NCBI GenBank assembly: GCA_963082975.1
Contig: OY720346.1
Coordinates: forward strand, 70,547,267 to 70,611,266
Reading direction: 5' to 3'
DNA: 64,000 bases
From: Labia minor
Lineage: Eukaryota; Arthropoda; Insecta; Dermaptera; Spongiphoridae
Shown here: positions 3,976 through 60,637 of the stretch, piece by piece
Position numbering within the stretch: position 1 is the stretch's first letter
Layout: each line of letters starts with the position of its first letter
Translations under genes and position numbers: made by a program
Notes under the pieces: generated by a model
What the model was told of the DNA's origin: nothing
The model's database searches: none
The model's input: only the letters and a program-made list of their open reading frames with translations

Positions 3976-5099
3976 GTTTGAAATTTGTAACAAAAATTAC
4001 TTAAAGCAATATTTATAAAACGACTACGATGGATAAACAAAAATTAAGAATTACTATTCCTTTAATATAGTTTATATCTAAATGATTTTTTACCGACCGA
4101 CGATAGTAAGGGAGGTATTGTTTTCACACCAAATTTCACATGTGGAGATTTTTACATATCTCCACGAATCATGCATTTTCTAAACAGAAAAAAGTATTTT
4201 TAGCATGATGTCTGTCCGTCCGTCTGTCCGTCTGTCCGTCTGTCCGTCCGTCCGTCCGTCCGTATAGATGTGTACAGCCTGAACGGCTCAACCGATTTTG
4301 ATGAAATTTGGTATATTTACTTAATGCATCAGTGGGATGAATTGATCAACTTTTGGTGCAATTCCGGAAACCGGAAGTGGTAGTATTAGCGATCGACGAT
4401 AGGAAGGAAAGGGTTATTTTCACACCAAAGGAGATTTTTTTATATATCACCACGAATCATGCACTTTGTATTGGTTTTATCCTCGAGAAAAATCATATTT
4501 ATTAGTTTTTTCTTGATTTAAAATTATATGACGTCATCCATCCATTCATGACGTCACAGCCTGGTCTTGCATATATATTATAAATAAAATAAAATTAAAA
4601 ATGTTTATATTTATTATTTATGTATGCCTATCTGTTTTTTATTACATTAATAGATATATGAAAATTATTTGAAATTGTTTCTGTAGCTGGAAATTAATTT
4701 ATTTCAAACCGTCGGTCGGTTCGGACCTGGCCACAGGTCAACTTATTTTTAAATTAAAAAATTATATTATTAATAGAGGGACATAAAAAATTGCTTAAAA
4801 AAACAAAATTAAACATATCTATTTTTAATTTTGTATAATAAATATTAGAAAAAATAAAAATGAAGAGAATCTGAATTTCTTCATTTTTTTAAAAGTAAAA
4901 TAAGTGGTATTTAAAAACACTCAGACACTAGTTTTAATATTTATTTATGATGGAATAAACTTTTTCAATATCCATTCAAGTGGCCATTTGAATAGGAATA
5001 GAGGGACATAAAAAATTGCGAAATGGATAGTTTGAAATTTATATGAAAATTTAGTTAAGGCAATATCTATAAAACGACTATGATAGATAAACAAAAATT
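3976..5099 (+). repeat. About 72-bp direct repeats flanking a family A insertion
   Basis: The segment at 3976-4051 recurs at 5028-5099 in the same orientation. The shared core includes ATAAAACGACTA and GATAAACAAAAATT. A shorter unit, AATAGAGGGACATAAAAAAT, occurs at 4774 and again near 4997. The family A element (4089-4743) lies between the copies. The two units could be ends of a decayed larger element or a local duplication; I cannot tell which. Confidence 0.55.
4089..4743 (+). mobile_element. Family A Helentron-like non-autonomous element (copy A1)
   Basis: The element starts TTTTTACCGACCGACGATAG and ends with a small hairpin, GACCTG-gcca-CAGGTC, followed by AACTT. The inner end carries CCGTCGGTCGGT, the inverted form of the 5' CCGACCGACG, so there are subterminal inverted repeats. 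A (GTCC/GTCT)n microsatellite lies at 4208-4264. There is no coding sequence. This plan is that of insect DINE-1/HINE elements, the short non-autonomous relatives of Helentrons. A second full copy is inverted at 59,574-60,224. Confidence 0.7.
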
Positions 5100-7858: not shown

Positions 7859-8998
7859 GGTAATTACTCAAATTAGTTTTTATGTCATGGATTTGGATAA
7901 AACTTTACCAGAGGGTTCCTTTTTTTAATTCTAAAAAAACTTTTCTCAAGCAATTTTGCGGGTCGCTTCTAATTTACGAGATAAATAAAGATTTTTTAAG
8001 TTTGACGAATTAGCTGGTTATGAACGTCGAAATGTGCCATTAAGTAATGTTTTATTGACTAATTCACTAATTATTCACTTATTCCTAATTCAATTTTTTC
8101 GATTTGGATATTTAATTAATTAATTTTTTAATTTTTCTATATTCAATCCGAACTGAGAAAAAACCGAAAATTAGTGGAACCCTCTGGTGATTAAATTAAT
8201 AAAACATGGTAGCTGAATGGATTTATACGCAAATTTTAATAATTTTTATCTCGTAAACTAGAAGCGACCCGCACAAATTGCATAAGAAAAGTTTTTTTAG
8301 GATTAAATAAGCTGGAGTGTCTCCACTCGACTATCTCGCAATTTGAATTGGATTAAATAACATAATATATTATTTTTAAATTAAATTTAATTAATTATAA
8401 ATTATAAATAATAAATATTAAACCAGCGCATGTTTGACTTTTTGTTGATGGCACCATGGCACGTGTTGGCGCGTGAGATTTGCAGTGTTAAAAAATTAAT
8501 TCTGGTACTTTCAGCAATTCAATCAAGCTGAAATTCTATATATAGCAGTTTTATACAATTATTAATCATGTGAAAAATTATCAAACATATATTTTTATTT
8601 TTACGGTCACTTTAGAGGAAAAAAAATCAAAACGTTGTAGGTAATGACCCTCTTCCGGTTGAGCTACATTTCTCAAAAGTTGATAGAAAACTATGAATTT
8701 TGAATAATGTCCATGTACCAAATTTCATCATTCTAGCTCAAACCGTTTTTGCGTAATCTTGTCTACATACATACACACACACATACACACACACATACAC
8801 ACACACATACACACACACAGACATTTTTCTCAACCTTAGTGAAAATGATTCAGGAACCTTCAAAACGTATAAAAACATCAAAATCTCAACATCGAAAATT
8901 TTCGTGATCGCAATACTATCTCTGGCGAGATAGTAAAAAGGAACCCTCTGGTAAAGTTTTATCCAAATCCATGACATAAAAACTAATTTGAGTAAGTA
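7859..8998. mobile_element. Long-TIR element C (copy C1), interrupted by family B
   Basis: The two ends are inverted copies: at least 56 bp reading from TACTCAAATTAG through ATGGATTTGGATAAAACTTT to GAGGGTTCCT are identical after reverse complement. The repeats continue more loosely inward through a TATCTCGTAAACTAGAAGCG box. There is no open frame. A family B element sits at 8311-8936 in the right arm. Copy C2 at 25,561 is uninterrupted and gives the unit length, about 520 bp. The superfamily is not recognised. Confidence 0.65.
8311..8936 (-). mobile_element. Family B Helentron-like non-autonomous element (copy B1)
   Basis: Read on the minus strand, the element starts TTTTTACTATCTCGCC and ends GCGAGATAGTCGAGTGGAGA plus CACTCCAGCT. 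It has subterminal inverted repeats (ACTATCTCGC/GCGAGATAGT), a terminal hairpin (GAGTG-gaga-CACTC) and an internal TG-rich microsatellite (8763-8820). The box ATGAAATTTGGTA is shared with family A. It carries no coding sequence and is inserted in the right arm of C1. Other copies lie at 13,995, 51,680 and 59,231. Confidence 0.7.
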
Positions 8999-9169
8999 CT
9001 ATTATTATAATTAATATTAAAAGCTGACAAAATATAATAAAAGTGTTAAATGTAAGTATATATGTATTTTAAATTATATTTATTATGGATATTTAACGTT
9101 TATTTATGTGAAAAATACTTCATTAAAATAATGATGATAAACTTATCTTTCTCGATTATCTATTAGAAT

Positions 9170-12506: not shown

Positions 12507-15500
12507 GTGGCTACTGTTGGTCCTCAGTGGGACGGGGTGGCCGATGCACTGAACTATTTAGCGAAAAATCAACCAGGGAGCAATGCTGTCATTCAGGAGC
12601 AGGAACTGCAACTGCATGGAGCCCGGACGAATATGATCCAGGAACTTTATTTTTTTGGCGAATTTTAGGAGGAGGGGTAGCATGTCAACCATGTCGAGGT
12701 AAGAATTAACTTATTATTAATTGAGTATTAAGAGCGATGGATTAGTACAAATTGGTATGCAATCCATTTACAAATAAAATAGTCAAAACATTGTAAATTA
12801 ATCCTTTGTTTTTACTTCTCTCTCCTCACTCGCACTCACAATTTGAGAATTTTAATACAATTGATAGAAGAACAATTCAAATAACTTGAAAGATTAAAAA
12901 AACGGAGGAATCAAGAAATAATAGATAAAAAATAGACAAACAGAAAAAAAACTCCCTGGATGAAATTAAAGGAAAAATAATGACTAGTTTATTTATTTTT
13001 TTTTTTGTGTCATATGTTAATATATTCAATCAAATGTTAAGAGAGAAAACCCACAAAAATCTTTTTCTTACCTCTCTTTTATATTTTATGTATATTTTCA
13101 AAGAAATAGAACAAATACAATTCATAATTTGATGATAAATAAACTGATTCAAATTGTTTATTATTGCCCAAGAACTAAAACAATATTTAACTCAATTAAT
13201 TTTAAAATTAATAACTTGTTGAAAAATAATCAATAAGATTTTTAAAATTATTATTCCATATGTATTTAATTTGGTGTTTATTTCCAGAAACATGTTCGGG
13301 TGTGGATTGTGGTGAAGGAAGAAAATGTGTTGTCCGCAAAGGGCGTCCGAAATGTGTCTGCGCACCAGATTGTAGAGGAGGCTCCAACCGGAATCGTGGT
13401 CTTCGTGGTCTCTCACCAGGCTCCGGAGGGGGTTCTGGACCTGTTTGTGGTACTGATGGAAGAACTTATCGTACCCTCTGCCGACTGAAGAAAAGAGCCT
13501 GTAGAAAACGAGCGAGTACTTTAGCTGTTGCCTATCATGGACATTGTCAGAGTAAGTTGGGGATAAGAATAATATCAGTGGTTCTTAGCAAACTCTAAAT
13601 TATTAAACATTTTATTTGTATACACCAATACCTCACTTTGCGTCGGAGTTACACTTTAAAAAAAAAACCGGAAATTGAAACGACGCAAAGTGAATTAAGA
13701 TTTTCTATAGCAAACCATGTAAAGATCGAAGATAGGTTCCAGGGTTACGAAAATACTACTTTATAAAAAGAAAATTGAACAAATTAAACATTTAAAAAAA
13801 TAATATAAATTTATTACATGCATACAAAAAACAAAAAAAAAAAACATATTCAATTAATAAACTAAATATTCTTTTGTCATTTAATTTTTCACTTTCGTGA
13901 AAATTCGACAATTTTTAAATTGCAATTATTGAATTTACACATCTAGATGAAACGAGCAATTCAATATATTATAATTAATATCTATTTAAAAATTAGCTGG
14001 GGTGTCTCCACTCGACTATCTCGCAAATTTGAATTGGATTAATTAACACATTTATTATATTTAAATTAAATTTAATTAATTATAAATTATAAGTTAAAAT
14101 TAATAAATAATATTTAATAAACCAACGCATGTTTAGCTCTTTGTTGATGGCACCACGTCACGTGTTGGCGCGTGAGAATTGCAGTGTTAAAAATTTTTTT
14201 ATGGTACTTTCAGCGATTCAATCAAGCTAGCAGTTTTATACAATTTTTAATTATGTGAAAAATTATCAAACATATATCCTTATTTTTACTGTCACTTTAG
14301 GGGAAAAAAAATCAAAACGTTGTAGGTAATGACCCTCTTCCGGTTGAGCTACATTTCTCAAAAGTTGATAGAAAACTACAAATTTTGAATAATGCCCATG
14401 TACCAAATTTCATGATTCTAGCTTAAGCCGTTTTTGCGTAATCTTGTCTACATACATACATACACACACACAGACATTTTTCTCAACCTTTGTGAAAATG
14501 ATTCAGGAACCTTCAAAACTTATAAAAACATCAAAATCTCAACATCGAAAATTTGGCGAGATTGTAATAAATTAAAATTAATAATTAATAAATAAAATTA
14601 ATAAATAAAATAAATAATAATAAATAAATTCAAATTAAAAAATACTATTTACAAAATTTGCGATGATCTCACTAGTAAACATAATTTTTTTAAATATTGT
14701 TTTGTTACACATTGTATTTAATTTTCCACAAAACATATCACCTTGATGTACATTCTGGGATATCCTTCTAGACTAGAGAAAAAAAGAAAATATCAAAAAG
14801 TTTAAAAACAAAACAAAAAACAAATTAAACAACGCAACCTCGAAAATCTAACGACGCACAGTGAAAATGAGCACTAATTAAGCAGCGACGCAACTTCGAA
14901 AAATGCAAAACGAAACGACGCAAATCGAGGTATTGGGTGTATTTATAAAGATATTTTGCTTCTATTTGGAAGTTGAGGGTTTTATTAAAATAAAACAATT
15001 TGAATTTTTTTTTTTTATTTTTTAATTTCAATTTGTTCATTTGAGAACCACTGTTTATCATAAGAATGGGAAGGGAAGGGAATACGGCGTGCAGATCAGT
15101 GGTGACCTACTTGTCCCCGCTGCTCACGCAGGATCCTGCGACAGGATCGTCTGCCCGGCTGGAAAACACTGTCTTCTGGATCAAAACCTGAGTCCTCATT
15201 GTGTGCGATGTGGAGCGCGTCGTTGTCCAACAACAGGAGGAGGCAAGCCTGTCTGCGGCGTAGATGGCATCACTTATCAGAGCGCATGCCATTTAAGGGA
15301 GGCGGCATGTCATAAAGGACGAGCAATTCCAGTCGCATATCGAGGAAGATGCAAGAGTGAGTTGACCCAAACTACTTTCATTTTCTTATCCATCTTTCAT
15401 TATTTATCAATATTTTATCAAATGATGAAGTTAAGGAGTTTTTGTTGAGTCAATTTGTGGGGTGTAGCGCAGGCAACATGTCGGACAATCCATTGCCGCG

Positions 15501-18163: not shown

Positions 18164-18700
18164 TGAGGTGTGTCTAAAAAGTTCGGTGAATGGTATGATA
18201 AAAACATAAAAAGAGAATGTTAATTGTAAATACCTTTACTTACTAGCCACAACACACTTCTGACAACGTTCGTATAACGCTTGAAAACTGTTGGAGAAGT
18301 CTTGATGTGGAATCGTTCTCAGAATAGCAGGCACAACGTTCAGGCCGGCAATCCACATGCAGGACACCAGAAAACACTGAACGTGTTCGAGAGATGCTAA
18401 CAAAAGATCGGCGATTGACTGCGACTAATAGTCGAAGAATTGGGTATTAGCAAAGACAGAGTAAGTAGTGTTTTCTGGTGTCCTGCTTGTGGATTGCCGG
18501 CCTGAACGTTGTGCCTGCTATTCTGAGAACGATTCCACATCAAGACTTCTCCAACAGTTTTCAAGCGTTATACGAACGTTGTCAGAAGTGTGTTGTGGCT
18601 AGTGGAGAGTATTTTGAAGGTTAATAAAGGTATTTACAATTAACATTCTCTTTTTATGTTTTTATCATAACATTCACCGAACTTTTTAAGACACACCTCG
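18164..18700. mobile_element. Foldback (palindromic) mariner element
   Basis: Terminal repeats (GAGGTGTGTCTAAAAAGTTC and its complement) are flanked by TA. Both arms carry the same mariner 3' region: the right arm (18,469-18,700) reads NVVPAILRTIPHQDFSNSFQ and LYERCQKCVVASGEYFEG, the C-terminal end of a mariner transposase, and the left arm (to about 18,378) is its inverted copy with a roughly 20-bp deletion. The middle keeps an N-terminal-type fragment, RVREMLTKDRRLT. It cannot encode a transposase and can fold into a hairpin of more than 200 bp. Confidence 0.85.
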
Positions 18701-24606: not shown

Positions 24607-27600
24607 ATGGGATGTATTTTTTCAAAAGAAAATTCAGCTCAACCTAAAGTCGAAGAAAATAAACCGAAAGAATATTCTTGGTACACTGTATTTATTTGTT
24701 TTTATTTTGTTTATAAAGATATATATTTTATTCTTATATAATATTTTACTTATACAGGGATAAACGAGAACGTGTTGATCCAAAAAAATATTTGATTGAA
24801 AATTTAAAAGATGAAGTTGTAATTAAATTGCCCGGATCTGTCAATGGAGAACAATTTCTTATTCAGAATTGTCAAAACACTTGCATTTATATACTGGATC
24901 ATATCAATACAATTTCAATTGATGAATGTACCAATTGTAAAATAATATTAGGGCCTGTTAAAGGAAGGTTAGTTTTAATATGTTTATTTACTTTTGTTAT
25001 TTAAAAGAATATTATTGCTGATTCTAGAACAAAATAAATTAATTAAACCAACATTCCAATCAAATAATAATATTTTTTGAATAGATAATTATTTTTATTT
25101 GTAAATTGTTTACTTTTTTAATTGATAAGTCAAATATTTGCTAAAGTTTTTTACTTTTAATCTTTCAGTGCTTTTTTGAGAGATTGCAGTAATTGTAATT
25201 GCATATTAGGATGTGGACAATTTCGTACTCGTGATTGTAAAAAGATGAATATATTTTTATGTTGTCCCACCCAGCCAATAATTGAGTCTTCTAGTTTGAT
25301 GTTTTTTGGATGTTACCAACTCTATTATAAAGAATTAGAAGGTAATAATACAACCATAAATTTAAAATTCAAAATAAAATAAAAAAAACAAAAATTAATA
25401 AATCTAATTTATTTAATATTATATTAATTATATTAATATTATATTATTATATATTTATTTATATACAAATTTATTTAATTTACTTGAATATAAAAAAATC
25501 TTGCAAGCAGGTATTATAATTGAATTTATAAGAAGATATTTTATATCTAACTTTATATTTGGTAATTATATAAACTGGTCATCCAGTCATGTATTTGGAT
25601 AAAACTTTACCAGTGACTTCCTTTTTAATTCCAAATAAACTTTTCTTATGCTATTTTTGCGGGACGCTTCTAGTTTACGAGATAAAAAGGATTAAAGTTT
25701 GTCAGATTAGCTTATTATGAACCTCAAAATATGATATCATTAAATAATGTTTTATTGACTAATTCACTAATTATTCACTTATATCTAATATTCGATTTTT
25801 TTCGGTACGGAGTGGATATAGGAAAATTATTTAATTAATCTATATCTAATCCGAACTGAATATAAAGAAATTAGTGGAGCCCTCTGATGGTCAAATGAAT
25901 AAAACATGGTAGATAAATAGAATATCAATGGATTTTGATGCAAATTTTAATACTTTTTATCTCGTAACTAGAAGCGACCCGCAAAAATAGCATAAGAAAA
26001 GTATATTTGGAATTTATAAAGGAATCCACTAGTAAAGTTTTATCCAAATCCATGACTGGATGACCAGTTTATATAATTACCTTATATATAGAGAACAAAG
26101 TAAGAATTAATTAAATTTTATGGTATTCTCTCTTATTTTGTTTTTAATTTTAGATCAATTTCATAAAGCTGGTTTAAGTTTTTTTAATAATTTATGGACG
26201 AACATCCATGATTATACTCCATGGGATTCAGAAAAAAATTCCCGTCTTCTCACCCGATCCACAATAAATTTAAAGGAATATTTTAATGATGAAACTTTTG
26301 AGTAATTTATTTTTTTTTATTAATTATATTATTAAATTTTCTTTGAATCTATTATAATTACTTCTAATTTAATTTTTATTTTATTTTTTCATTTGTTTCT
26401 ATTTAGTAATAAATTCTCACTAAATTCTGAGCTTAGTGTGGTGCCTTATACATATGGCGTTGAAAATTTGACAAGTAACGCCCAAAATGATTCTTGTTTA
26501 GTTGCATTCTTTAGTGATGGACAACATGTCGACCGTACTAGAGCATTTATACGAAATATTTACCAAGAAAATGTAAGAAAACTATTCAAGGATGGATCTA
26601 GATATTTACTTTAAACAATCGATTTTTTTCAATTCAACACTTTTATTTTTACACAAATAAATAAATTATATTTTTGAAATGAATCCATTATTTGTTTTAT
26701 GTGTGAATGATTTCACTTACAGGCCGAATGTATTTTAATATCTAGTAAAGAAATAAATTTAAAACCTGAGAAAGCTGAAACAATATTCTTAACGAATGCT
26801 TATCATTCCATTTTGCAACGAGGAAAAGTCATTGGCCTCTACTACAACGGTCCAGATTGTATTAAATCCTGTCAAAAGGTAACAAAAAAATTAAATAATA
26901 GACAGGATGATTTGAATGTTTTGATATATATCTCAAAAGAATACAAATACAAAAATTATTCTTGTCAAAAATACTTTTCTAACAATTTATCAACACAATT
27001 GTTTTAATTATTATCTAAATCTTGACAAATTATTTTCTCATCTTTTTAGATTCTACATTTTTATTTTATTCTATATAATAGATAGGTTAAACTATAATTT
27101 AATCCTCTGTTATAAAAAATTTCATAGTTAATTACCCAATGTAATTGCATAAGCAAATAATCATCCCATAGGAATATGGGGGTTATTATTTTCCATTTGT
27201 TTATGAATAAAAAAATAATACAAAATTGTTATACATTTGAATACTACACTAACTTCTATAATTATTTTGAGATGAAATTTATAATTATAATAAGTTTGAA
27301 AAATAATCAATAAATTATTGATTAATTTCATTTAAAATATTTATTCTTAATTATTAATTGATGAAACTAAATTTTATACTGGGAAATTATCTTTTATTTC
27401 TATTATTATTTGTTTCTTATATTTGATTTATATTATTTACTACTATGAAAATTTATTTAATTTTTATCCAATTTCCTTTTCAAAACTTTACAAATCTAAT
27501 TTTTTTTAATATCTTGTTTTTGTATAGGTCGCCATGGATATTGCAACATCAACAGGATCAACTGGTCTAGTTTATGTGAGCTCAAATCCAAAAACAACAA

Positions 27601-29521: not shown

Positions 29522-29557
29522 TTTTTACCGACCGACGATAGTAAGGGAGGTATTGTT
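29522..29557 (+). repeat. Family A 5'-end fragment (A3)
   Basis: A 36-bp match to the left end of family A (TTTTTACCGACCGACGATAG and GTAAGGGAGGTATTGTT). It stops within 5 bp of the TRAPPC13 stop codon, so it forms the start of that gene's 3' UTR, in antisense. Confidence 0.75.
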
Positions 29558-49802: not shown

Positions 49803-50024
49803 TATATATATATATGTGATAAATTATTCATATTAATGTTAATATATTGTTTAACTATCATCATCTTTACAAATTCTAGAAATATTTATTTATATTCTAG
49901 ATTCACATATTTTATTTATAATTTTTTATTTTTAAATATTTTTTTAATTTTTATACATTTTAATAATCTCAATTTAATTTATTTAAATTTATGTCTTTAT
50001 CTTTTCATTATATTATTAAAAATA

Positions 50025-50070
50025 AGTTGTACCTGGCCACAGAACCGACCGACGATTTGAAATAAATTAA
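50025..50070 (-). repeat. Family A terminal fragment
   Basis: ACCTGGCCACAGAACCGACC plus GACGATTTGAAAT matches the hairpin end of family A in minus orientation. It directly precedes the next mariner relic. Confidence 0.6.
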
Positions 50071-50079
50071 ACAACATTA

Positions 50080-50410
50080 TGTCTAAAAAGTTCGGTGAAT
50101 GGTATGATAAAAACATAAAAAGAGAATGTTAATTGTAAATACCTTTATTAACCTTCAAAATACTCTCCACTAGCTACAACACACTTCTGACTACGTTCGT
50201 ATAACGCATGAAAACTGTTAGAGAAGTCTTGATGTGGAATCGTTCTCAGAATAGTAGGCACAACGTTCAAGCCGGTAATCCACAAGCAGGACACCAGAAA
50301 ACACTACTTACTGTGTCTTTGCTAATACCCAATTCTTCGACTATTAGTCGCAGAGTCAATCGCCGATCTTTTGTTAGCATCTCTCGTACACGTTCAGTGT
50401 TTTCTGGTGT
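50080..50410. mobile_element. Truncated copy of the foldback mariner
   Basis: One whole arm (TGTCTAAAAAGTTCGGTGAA onward) and the central segment match the element at 18,164; the second arm is cut after TGTTTTCTGGTGT. The centre is in the opposite sense relative to the shared arm, as expected for the same palindromic element inserted in the other orientation. This copy keeps the roughly 20 bp missing from the left arm at 18.2 kb. Confidence 0.85.
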
Positions 50411-52965
50411 TTATTTATTTTTCAATCTTAATTTGTTCTTATAATACATTCAGTAATTTAAATAATTTATAAAATATTTTAATTATTTCTATTTTTTTTG
50501 AAATTTATTTTTTAAAACTTGAATGTATTAGTTTATTCGATTTAATTATTTGTTTATTAATATTACTATATATTTTATATTGGGCACCTTTATAGCTGGT
50601 TTTGGGAAATGTATCATTCTAATTCATGTATATCTTCTTATTCCTTTTTTTAAACTCATCTTTTCCCTCCTCTCTCACAAGCCAAAATATTGATTTTTTA
50701 CTTTTTGACATAAAAAATAAATAAATAAATAAAAAAATCAACAGTTGTCATTTGTCGTCTAGTTGTCTAATTTTCTGAATATTGTTAGCATTTAAACATT
50801 TAAACATTTAAAAGAAAAATCTCCTCCGATATCCGACTTGGCACAATTCTAAATTTAATTTGAGAGCTACGAGGTGACCCCGTGGGAGCGTTTAGGAAGT
50901 AAAACGAACCTCTTTCCCCTAAAATTGCATTATCTCTATGATTTCCTATCTCGCTCTCTCCCAATGGAATTAATGTGATTATTTAATTTTCAATTCCACT
51001 TCTCTCTTATTATTATTGATTTTCATTTACATTTATAAATAAATATAAAATTCAATTAAGAATTTAAACACTTTTACTGTCCAACTCACAATAGATATTA
51101 ATTTTAATTTATTTTATTTTTAAAAGAACACCTAATTGCCTAGGATTTGTAGTGAAAATTCTTTTATTTTTTTACTATCTTGTCAGAGATTACTATTTTC
51201 AAGTCATATTTCTTCAATTGCTTATTGGGAGGGGAACGCGGGGGAACGACGTTCCCTTACCTTTTTTCAGAACCAGAACGCGTTCCAGTACTTTTTCATG
51301 TCCCGACAACTCCCACTTAAATCTACTGTTAGAATTTCTTTTTTTGTGTTCGTTAATATTTTGTATAGTAAGAATAAGAAAAAATAAAAACTTATATGGA
51401 AAAAAAAATGGTTTGCTGAAAATAGGACTTTTTTTTGCCCCCACTATGCGTTCCCTTACTTCTTATTTTACCAATACATCACTGTATTTCTTACAATAAA
51501 TATGTTCACATCTGTGTAAAATCTACTTCCATGTGAAGGTATTAACTCTAAGTCAATGTGTTAAATTTTTACTTAAAAATGAAGGTAAAGGTTTTAAATT
51601 TAATATATGTTAATTAATTAATTTACTTGAATAACAATACTATACTGTAAATTTAATTTTTTTTCATTAATTAATTAATCCAATTCAAACTTGCGAGATA
51701 GTCGAGAGGAGACACTCCAGATTTCTTTTGTTTATAAATGCGAACATATAAAAAATTATTTCTTTCTCAAAAAATATTCTACAGAAGTTCTTTTCAATTT
51801 TCATAAACTTTTTATTAATTAAAATTTTAAGAGTTTTGATAAGTGGACATTATTGTTTTTTTTTTAGTTAAATAAATAAATAAAAAAGAAAAAGAGAATT
51901 AAATTAAATTTCTCAAGAACCCAGATCATTCATAAAAATAAATAATACATGTTTTGCTTCAAGTTCTTATCATCTACAAAAACTAATAAATTTTATATTT
52001 AATCATATTAATAAAAGGATTAAATTAAATGAGGGCTGATTTCTTCCAAATTCAAGCAAATTCATTACTAGAAATTCTACTGTTTATATATATGTGGGTG
52101 ATGTTTTTTTTTTTCACTTTTGTACATTTCACTTTTTACCTCAACTCTTTTTGAATAAATTTCACTCTAATCTATCTATTTATTATGATATACTTAATCT
52201 ACTCTCATGTGTCATCGAGTTAGTCATCTATTTCACTTATTTTCTAAAATAAATATTTATATTCTAATTCATTAACATTTTAAAAGAATTTTTGATATTT
52301 GTTATAAATATTTATTATATTTGTATTTGATTGATGTTAAGATTGATTGGAATTCGTTGAAATCAATTCTTAGACTATTGAGAAATAGACCACCCATCAA
52401 GCTCTGAGATTGTGTGTATGAACTTATTATTAGTTGGTCAAAATGATCCAGGCTACAAAAGTCTTGGGTCCTATTTATAGGAGGAGCAATTTAAGAATAA
52501 TTTGAGAATAAATGGATAGAGAAGAAGATATTTATCCTGTTCTCTAACGTTAATATTAACGATAGAACAATCATCGTATTTTCAAAGTAATTAAGGAGTT
52601 TTGTTCTGAGAATTCTATTGTTTTGTTCATTCCTACATGATTAAGGTATATATATATATAAGGGCTTGAATAGATGAAATTTACTGATATATATTTGAAT
52701 GCAACTATTTATATAATATATGGTTAACTTAAATTCTTATCAACAAATGAGGTATTTATCTGCTATTTATCTATCTTTTTTTTCAATGAAGCTAATGATG
52801 TAAAGTAATATTCTTCTTTATGATAAACATGTCTCTGAAATTTATTTTCTATTAATTGGGTTCGCTTAAAAAAATGTGTCGAATATTGTTAAACGAACTA
52901 AACCAGACCGTATAAATAAATTTTAATTTTAAAAGATATTTTTTTTATAAATTTTAAAAAATTAT
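50411..52965. other. Intergenic DNA with a few complex patches
   Basis: No coding exon. A GC-richer patch lies at 50,815-50,970 and a near-palindrome GGGAACGACGTTCCC near 51,243. The canonical MEF2 site CTATTTATAG is at 52,471-52,480 inside the palindrome-like TCCTATTTATAGGA. A remnant of family B lies at 51,680-51,720. Confidence 0.45.
51680..51720 (+). repeat. Family B terminal fragment (B4)
   Basis: Ends GCGAGATAGTCGAGAGGAGA plus CACTCCAG, the hairpin terminus of family B in plus orientation. The remainder of the element is absent. Confidence 0.65.
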
Positions 52966-55280: not shown

Positions 55281-56286
55281 AATCTAATCAAAAACATACC
55301 TGTTAAAAAGGGGGCCAAGTTCCTATCGGCTATTTGTTTGCCTAAAAAAGTGTTCAAATCCATCCCAATGCCAAGTTTAGATGCACTTTAAAATCAATCA
55401 TAATCATTTTCATCAACAGCCTGATCCACTGGTAAACATTTGGCATTCCCAAGAATCGCCACCACCCCCAGTCCTCCGCCTCCTGCATCCAGGCACGCCA
55501 CTTTATTCGCGTCAACGGTCCATCTGGCCGAAATTCACTTTACCATACACCCAACTTAAAATATGGTATAGTTGTTAAAATACGTAGGTACATGGTTTAA
55601 AATATCTAAAATTATAATACTTAGAAATTTGAACTTGGCAGGTTTTCGTGCTGTACGTAACACTAGATTAATTGTATAATTATATTTATTATTTAAATAT
55701 ATAAATCAACCTGCTAAGTTCAAATTTCTAAGTATTATAATTTTAGATATTTTAAACAAAGTACCTACGTATTTTAACAACTATACCATATTTTAAGTTG
55801 GGTATATGGTAAAGTGAATTTCGGCCAGATGGACCGTTGACGTGAATAAAGTGGCGTGTAGTGTGCCTGGATGCAGGAGGCGGAGGACTTGGTATGGGAC
55901 TGAGTGTTATGTACAGCACGAAAACCTGCCAAGTTCAAATTTCTAAGTATTATAATTTTAGATATTTTAAACCATGTACCTACGTATTTTAACAACTATA
56001 CCATATTTTAAGTTGGGTGTATGGTAAAGTGAATTTCGGCCAGATGGACCGTTGACGCGAATAAAGTGGCGTGCCTGGATGCAGGAGGCGGAGGACTGGG
56101 TGTGGTAGCGATTCTTGGGAATGCCAAATGTTTACCAGTGGATCAGGCTGTTGATGAAAATGATTATGATTGATTTTAAAGTGCATCTAAACTTGGCATT
56201 GGGATGGATTTGAACACTTTTTTAGGCAAACAAATAGCCGATAGGAACTTGGCCCCCTTTTTAACAGGTATGTTTTTGATTAGATT
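55281..56286. repeat. Large inverted repeat with 383-bp arms
   Basis: Left arm 55,281-55,663 and right arm 55,904-56,286 are reverse complements with equal length and few visible differences. The 240-bp spacer holds a second partial copy of the right arm (about 55,709-55,898). The sense reading of the right arm includes WRAWMQEAEDWVW, which recalls the C-terminus of some LINE proteins, but this is weak. A transcript would fold into a long hairpin. Confidence 0.85.
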
Positions 56287-59162: not shown

Positions 59163-59230
59163 TGGTAATTATTTAGTCTAATTGATGTATCATGGATTTG
59201 GATAAAACTTTACTAGTGGATTGATTTCTT
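59163..59230 (+). mobile_element. Element C left-end fragment (C3)
   Basis: GGTAATTATTTAGTC then ATCATGGATTTGGATAAAAC matches the end of copies C1 and C2. It is broken by family B at the same internal position of the C arm as in C1. Confidence 0.65.
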
Positions 59231-60370
59231 TTTTACTATCTCGCCAGAAAAATTTTCGATGTCGAGATTTTGATGTTTTTATACGTTTTGAAGGTTCCTG
59301 AAACATTTTCACTAAGGTTGAAAAAAATGTCTGTCTGTCTGTCTGTGTGTGAGTGTGTGTGTATATGTAGACAAGATTACCCAAAAACGGCTTGAGCTAG
59401 AATAATGAAATTTGGTATATGTGCATTATTCAAAATTTGTAGTTTTCTCTCAACTTTTGAGAAATGTAGCTCAACCGAAAGAGGGCCATTACCTACAACG
59501 TTTTGATTTTTTTCCCTCTAAAGCGACCATAAAAATAAAGATATATGTTTGATAGTTTTTCCCATGATTAATAAGTTGACCTGTGGCCAGGTCCGAACCG
59601 ACCGACTGTTTGAAATCAATTAATTTCCAGCTACAGAAACAATTTCAAATAATTTTAATATATCTATTAATGTAATAAAAAACAGATATGGATACATAAA
59701 TAATAAATATAAACATTTTTAATTTTATTTTATTTATAATATATATGCAAGACCAGGCTGTGACGTCATGAATGGCTGAATGACTTCATATAATTTTAAA
59801 TCAAGAAAAAACTAATAAATATGATTTTTCTCGAGGATAAAACCAATACAAAGTGCATGATTCGTGGTGATATATAAAAAAATCTCCTTTGGTGTGAAAA
59901 TAACCCTTTCCTTCCTATCGTCGATCGCTAATACTACCACTTCCGGTTTCCGGAATTGCACCAAAAGTTGATCAATTCATCCCACTGATGCATTAAGTAA
60001 ATATACCAAATTTCATCAAAATCGGTTGAGCCGTTCAGGCTGTACACATCTATACGGACGGACGGACGGACAGACGGACAGACGGACAGACGGACGGACA
60101 GACATCATGCTAAAAATACTTTTTTCTGTTTAGAAAATGCATGATTCGTGGAGATATGTAAAAATCTCCACATGTGAAATTTGGTGTGAAAACAATACCT
60201 CCCTTACTATCGTCGGTCGGTAAAAATTGTATAAAACTGCTATATATAGAATTTCAGCTTGATTGAATTGCTGAAAGTACGGGAATTAATTTTTTAACAC
60301 TGCAAATCTCACGCGCCAACACGTGACGTGGTGCCATCAACAAAGAGCCAAACCTGCGCTGGTTTCATAA
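59231..60370 (+). mobile_element. Family B element (B3), split by family A
   Basis: The 5' end TTTTTACTATCTCGCCAG and the boxes of copy B1 run to about 59,573, then resume at 60,225 with TTGTATAAAACTGCTATATA. The hairpin end is lost; a (TTTA)n tract replaces it from about 60,371. The internal (TCTG)n/(TG)n microsatellite is at about 59,331-59,365. Confidence 0.75.
59574..60224 (-). mobile_element. Family A element (copy A2), nested in B3
   Basis: Full-length and inverted relative to A1: hairpin end AAGTTGACCTGTGGCCAGGT at the left, ACCGACCGACG end at the right, and a (GGAC/AGAC)n microsatellite at about 60,052-60,105. High similarity to A1 over the whole length suggests recent activity of the family. 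Confidence 0.75.
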
Positions 60371-60637
60371 ATATTATTAATTTATTTATTTATTATTTAT
60401 TTATTTATTATTTATTTATTTATTATTTATTTATTTATTTATTTATTTTAAAGTAACAAATCGAAGAACACACAAAAACGTAACTAACTTTTTCAGTTAT
60501 CAAAACAAACTACTAATCCAAAATGGCTGATAATGTCAACATATGAGCAACATATATGTACCAACATAACAAAAAAAATTCCGAATGTACACAGCCCGCG
60601 AAAATTCATAATTCATCTTTTCTTTTGAATAAATTTC

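Follow-up and report, generated by a model that had tools for sequence, protein, structure and literature searches.

The window, a stretch of 64,000 nt of Labia minor DNA (assembly GCA_963082975.1, OY720346.1, positions 70,547,267–70,611,266, forward strand; contig C4 in the genome searches), was analysed together with the 604-Mb assembly (71 contigs). It is AT-rich, with a GC content of 0.18–0.34 in 2-kb steps, and contains protein-like stretches of Kazal-domain, TRAPPC13 and Tim17-family type. Two repeat families, A and B, and a long-TIR element, C, are present (Table 1): A as two full copies, A1 and A2, plus two end fragments, and B as B1, B2 and the split copy B3, plus a 3' fragment near 51.7 kb. 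Further repeats of the window are a fold-back element with the TIR GAGGTGTGTCTAAAAAGTTCGG at 18171–18688 and 50080–50353, with an apparent mariner transposase fragment (recognised by eye), and an inverted repeat of 384 bp (99% alike) at 55281–56286, which has a spacer of 238 nt and is accompanied by a direct repeat of 151 bp.

Table 1. Repeat features of the window (positions counted from its first nucleotide)
Feature	Position	Strand	Remarks
A2, full HINE of family A (ACCGACC...CAACTTATT)	59570..60221	-	inserted in B3, opposite orientation
TTTTT preceding the A2 5' end	60222..60226	-	taken as target T run
A2 5' subTIR ACCGACCGAC	60212..60221	-	subTIR scan
A2 3' end: subTIR GTCGGTCGGT, hairpin GACCTG-GCCA-CAGGTC, tail AACTTATT	59570..59606	-	scan and folds
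A2 GTCY-rich microsatellite	60054..60104	-	
A1, other full A copy	4092..4747	+	
A fragment	29522..29557	+	only 5' end
A-related fragment	50021..50070	-	only 3' end, inverted hairpin
B3, HINE of family B	59235..60381	+	split by A2; without 3' subTIR and hairpin
C3, single end of C element	59164..59234	+	adjoins B3
B1, complete B	8306..8934	-	within element C1; A-free comparator of the sequence-only reading
B2, B copy	13991..14565	-	not in C; TTTTT at A2 target
B 3'-end fragment	51671..51723	+	
Element C1, long-TIR	7859..9000		contains B1; 8-bp flanks ATTATTAT on both sides
Element C2, C copy	25561..26081		without B; 8-bp flanks alike at 7/8

A1 and A2 agree at 646 of 654 aligned bases (98.8% identity), the sole indel being a 4-nt gap inside the GTCY microsatellite. 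Read on the Helentron strand, A is composed of a T run, ACCGACCGACG, the GTCY microsatellite, a core, GTCGGTCGGT, the hairpin GACCTG-GCCA-CAGGTC and AACTTATT; the parts of B1 are, in order, a T run, ACTATCTCGC, a GTCT/GT microsatellite, a core, GCGAGATAGT, the hairpin GAGTG-GAGA-CACTC and CAGCTTATT. Ten 3' ends of B were read, with CAGCTAATT in six and CAGATTT or similar in three. As in HINEs, the subTIR at the 5' end (ACCGACCGAC(G) in A, ACTATCTCGC in B1) is repeated before the 3' end, and in B1 an inverted repeat lies next to ACTATCTCGC (fold z −4.1). Scanning the window for 9-mer subTIRs combined with a hairpin returned 10 rows, against 0–2 per shuffle (15 shuffles); seven of these correspond to A1, A2 and B1, the other three lying near 54.3–55.6 kb and 4.7–5.5 kb. 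The 3' subTIR is followed by a hairpin before the terminus is reached, also as in HINEs, with DNA fold z values of −3.8/−3.7 for A1, −1.7/−2.1 for A2 and −1.2/−1.7 for B1; in B2 the fold of the 3' hairpin (z −0.6 and −0.9) does not surpass that of shuffled sequences, which counts against the assignment, and the same was found for the 3'-end fold of the inverted A-related fragment at 50021–50070. A and B align with each other across most of their length, with a local score of 175 against a best of 101 among 60 shuffles, which keep base composition only, and with part of the score coming from the microsatellite. Both families are thus HINE/DINE-1-like, of Helentron-type anatomy. The sequence-only reading had placed A in the Helentron-type class, and this was borne out by the anatomy and by the B ends that flank an autonomous Helentron (see below). 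Rfam at gathering thresholds returned nothing, the motifs of A, B and C gave no match in viral contigs, and blastn of 59163–60390 against phages gave none.

Two minor observations concern the same sequences. The 5' end of A recurs within the element in degenerate form (A2, 59570–60221; A1, 4092–4747), 75% alike over ~95 nt. The fragment at 50021–50070, a single copy, reaches an alignment score of 81 with the hairpin inverted and of 71 as it is; none of 2000 random replacements attained 81.

B3 runs CATGATTAATA as far as A2 and then continues TTGTATAAAACTGC; the same place is uninterrupted in B1 (reverse complement of 8530–8600), and both A2 junctions are exact, so that the sequence of both copies upholds the earlier statement that B3 is cut by a full A where B1 is not. 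Nesting on three levels, A in B in C, had been proposed as well, and this holds in part: A lies in B, and B3 adjoins the C3 end, but the far end of C3 was not found, C3 being one end only (59164–59234), and neither the subTIR nor the hairpin of the B3 3' end was found. Element C1 contains all of B1, and at C3 one side only survives. The nesting of A within B is real, and only A-in-B is complete. As to the order of events in the window, B would have entered a T run in a C arm first and A would have entered B later, in opposite orientation. B occupies comparable T runs in C1 (8925–9000) and C3 (59164–59240), which may reflect either transport of B by C as one unit or two separate hits of B on the run. 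Close to the tip of the C arms, a stretch of 19 nt is identical at 19/19 between the arms within C1 and within C2, and at 7–10/19 between copies (C1 7859–9000, C2 25561–26081, C3 59164–59234).

When the genome was searched for exact matches to the 30-nt 3' end of A, 15,828 were counted (7932 + 7896), against 0 for the backward control. For the analysis of termini 40 of 872 first-look candidates were scored; A1 (98%) was absent from those 40, and the copies analysed are therefore neither a complete nor a random sample. A total of 41 A copies were examined (39 fetched and the two of the window), two of them without a readable 5' end. The 3' end is AACTTATT in 39 of the 41, and the terminal ATT, which had been given to B, consequently belongs to A. 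TT precedes ACC in all 39 copies with a readable 5' end, and 32 of the 39 have at least five T; exactly five T were counted in 26 of these 32 copies, where 58% would be expected from flank T runs (p 0.0046). A 181-base B query against the own genome yielded no candidates, the search being one that skips common words and uninformative here.

The empty site of A2 was compared with both B1 and B2. Against B1, six parses are equal, namely zero duplication at A/T, T/T or T/A (the slash marking the insertion point), 1 bp twice, and TT once; against B2 there are ten equal parses, other than those against B1. Among nine B copies, the A2 target reads TTATT in eight (two of the eight in one element) and TTTTT in B2, whereas the A2 flank is TTTTT, and this difference between the A2 junction and most B paralogues was counted against the main reading. 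Most simply, B3 would already have carried TTTTT, like B2, when A2 arrived; alternatively, the Ts beside A2 could have been brought by A. Insertion at T/T without duplication, as deduced earlier from the single A2/B1 site, does not follow from that site, as six parses fit and B1 differs from the A2 flank. The B1-only empty-site analysis was rejected, being ambiguous and, given more copies, misleading.

Further empty sites were obtained for two cases of A in A (L020 and L021), for A in a C arm (L016), and by flank matches to window positions 51329–51436 (L027) and to a 28-nt stretch near 11.9 kb (L035), the latter being kept in the scoring despite its match of only 28 nt. A2 contributed two comparisons, one with B1 and one with B2, which brought the total to seven from six insertions. 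Of five paralogous C arms, the one that fitted L016 best entered the scoring, the remaining four deviating in T number or by a base at the junction. The joined-flank matches L011, L015, L033, L041 and L042 were dropped as unconvincing. Comparison strings for the boundary models were transcribed by hand from the flank matches, and 11 models were printed, those with 12 or more mismatches being left out. The lowest mismatch count over the seven comparisons, 4, is shared by four models: ACC..CAACTTATT and TTACC..CAACTTA without duplication, ACC..CAACTTAT with a duplication of 1 bp, and ACC..CAACTTA with a duplication of TT. The one-T model TACC..CAACTTAT without duplication gave 5 mismatches and places the insertion in T runs, the target type of HINEs, at T/T in six of the seven comparisons and at T/A in L027; this and a one-base difference beside the L027 junction were counted against the main reading. 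The A boundaries of the sequence-only reading (TTTTACC..CAACT) produced 8 mismatches over the same comparisons; among the 11 models three score 8 and one is worse.

A larger set of target sites was provided by insertions of A into A. The host run inside A is AAAAATAC-TTTTTT-CTG; 45 places without an insertion were read, and 44 of them have T6CTG. The left-junction pattern of A entering this T6 run had 423 genome matches (198 + 225) and none in the backward control, and among the 100 left junctions listed, 98 have only T (four to seven) between the anchors (five T, 64; six T, 31; seven T, 2; four T, 1; other letters, 2). For the right-junction pattern 81 genome matches were obtained (control 0), reading ATT+T in 44, ATT in 34, ATT+TT in 1 and CAACTTTTTT in 2; the gap between 423 and 81 is explained in part by the right pattern demanding CTGTTTAG, where many hosts read CTGTTAAG. 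Right-hand stretches were fetched for 20 places (10 with six T, 9 with five and 1 with seven). The junction was absent from eight of them and present in 12: five T on the left were joined by one T on the right in 6/6, six T by none in 5/5, and seven T by none in one. Pairing of the left and right lists by place gave 10 pairs, each summing to six, two of which were already among the 12 and one of which had CAACTTTTTT. In 19 of 20 paired junctions, which may include copies of one event, left and right T add up to six, as in the empty site, and in one to seven.

The 19 sites read as T/T without duplication if A is TACC..CAACTTAT and as a TT duplication if A is ACC..CAACTTA; since the letters are identical under both definitions, no duplication and a TT duplication cannot be told apart by sequence. 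The T/T claim, when applied to many A copies, was accordingly upheld for the T-run target and for the lack of net gain in 19 of 20 junctions, but the same letters would result from a TT duplication, and L027 is T/A. Insertion at T/T without duplication is thus consistent with the self-insertions. One B copy (L046) is inserted in the same T6 run of A. That A carries its own landing site, the T6 run serving as a self-target, is a tentative suggestion that we regard as rather doubtful; if true, family A would become a trap for itself, which could yield the doubled 5' end of A.

Helitron_like_N was matched 104 times in the genome at E up to 0.001, some of the matches being neighbouring pieces of one element. 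On contig C1 at ~47,862,607–47,874,777 (minus strand), B ends (5', 515 nt at 96.5%; 3', 44 nt at 97.7%) flank a stop-free ORF of 2181 aa. It combines an HUH Rep with a PIF1-family helicase (Pfam: Helitron_like_N, 7.5e-24; PIF1, 1.2e-31), and it also shows an HxH motif (PHEHIFLWL) and a Walker motif. Behind the helicase, two weak endonuclease-superfamily matches, both below the curated cut-off, lie on overlapping stretches: Exo_endo_phos_2 (Pfam, 3.3e-4, residues 195–281) and xth/exodeoxyribonuclease III (NCBIfam, 6.8e-4, residues 98–239). Taken together they lean towards a C-terminal apurinic-like/EEP endonuclease; no endonuclease match to the ORF was found in PDB sequences. A C-terminal Ulp1/SENP8-like stretch was matched weakly (E 0.019, PDB sequences), and the end of the ORF shows a Ulp1/C48-like stretch (HW...DCG), again with weak matches (L069, 8402–10000, minus strand, contig C1 47.86 Mb). 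A B-type 3' end is also located downstream of the Rep match at contig C1 44.70 Mb. For B, ends common to an autonomous Helentron and to short copies therefore occur in one genome, and B would most simply be a deletion derivative of the 47.87-Mb Helentron. The A 3' end was not found near 12 of the 104 Rep matches (loci at contig C1 47.87, C9 34.50, C1 85.86 and C2 66.56 Mb, plus eight 6-kb downstream stretches), a set in which some stretches may stop short of the element end; the search for a driver of A gave a 36-nt match to the A 5' end (L082), and neither A nor B ends were detected in 20 Rep loci with 1.5-kb flanks.

From the anatomy, the termini, the T-run target, the T number kept in the sites read and the Helentron ORF between B ends, it is very probable that A and B are non-autonomous Helentrons (HINEs, DINE-1-like), which move by a rolling-circle mode and land in T runs without net T change. 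A Helentron protein with an HUH Rep, a PIF1 helicase and an endonuclease-like domain would nick the T run before the 5' subTIR, rolling-circle replication would displace one strand as far as the hairpin that lies slightly inward of the 3' end, and the displaced strand would be joined into a T run elsewhere. A, in the form T(0-2)ACCGACC...CAACTTA(TT), would land near the end of a T run and leave the T number unchanged net. We infer from the sequence that B would be moved in these steps by the protein of contig C1 and A by a sister protein.

The insertion sites would be described just as well (4 mismatches each in the seven comparisons) by MITE-like cut-and-paste of an element ACCGACC...CAACTTA with a 2-bp TT target duplication; the TT before ACC in 39/39 copies fits such a duplication, and an equivalent reading was once proposed for DINE-1 (PMC2374699). 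However, the 3' inverted repeat of A lies ~25 nt inside the end with the hairpin outside of it, unlike the terminal repeats by which DDE MITEs are defined, and the B ends flank a Rep/helicase ORF and not a DDE transposase, so that cut-and-paste is improbable; a TT duplication arising without a MITE mechanism could nonetheless have left the same letters. The case for a canonical Helitron (TC...CTRR, inserted at A/T) is weaker still: A/T is one of the three zero-duplication parses against B1, but the ends are ACC...CAACTTATT, in contradiction to it in 39 of 41 copies, and the A/T parse (TTTTTACC...CAAC) accumulates 8 mismatches over the seven comparisons, making this reading very improbable. That the nesting itself is an artefact of assembly or recombination could be suspected from the incompleteness of C3 and B3 at the right, but is hardly conceivable in view of the exact A2 junctions, of A-in-A junction patterns found at hundreds of places and never in the controls, and of the agreement of the paired junctions.

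In published features, A and B resemble DINE-1/INE-1 of Drosophila (Yang and Barbash 2008, PMC2374699); by contrast, the subTIR sequences differ, the A subTIR has 10–11 bp versus 13, and the target of A is mostly T5. With HINEs and Helentrons as described by Thomas et al. (2014, PMC4067079) they have in common a Rep/helicase with an endonuclease-like stretch, autonomous and short copies with common ends, a T-rich target without detectable target modification, and a self-complementary 3' subTIR (A1 fold). Differences from that description are the position of the A 3' subTIR, 27 nt from the end versus 38–60, and the Ulp1-like C-terminal stretch of the contig C1 ORF. FoHeli of Fusarium oxysporum (PMC5148889) likewise shows self-insertion and doubled 5' ends with one 3' end; its termini differ, and the target of FoHeli1 and FoHeli2 lies between TNAT and A. 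HINEs and Helentrons, their T/T targets, and Helitrons that are inserted in themselves and have doubled 5' ends have all been published (PMC2374699, PMC4067079, PMC5148889). In the literature searched, no title or abstract opening naming family A or B was found, and a text search with the A/B core motifs returned nothing; A and B may stand in a repeat database. A and B would be new within the known HINE/Helentron class, and A offers unusually clean target-site data.

Target duplication by Helentron-type elements is hard to read because they land in T runs. As many A copies have entered one and the same known T run, its uninterrupted form gives the empty site, and the Ts to the left and right of an insertion can be counted; whether TT is part of the element or a duplicated target could be settled only by a transposition intermediate. 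With a full-length candidate driver for B in the genome, the system could be assayed. The 47.87-Mb Helentron also contains a 3'-truncated A (A 1–550, 92.6%).
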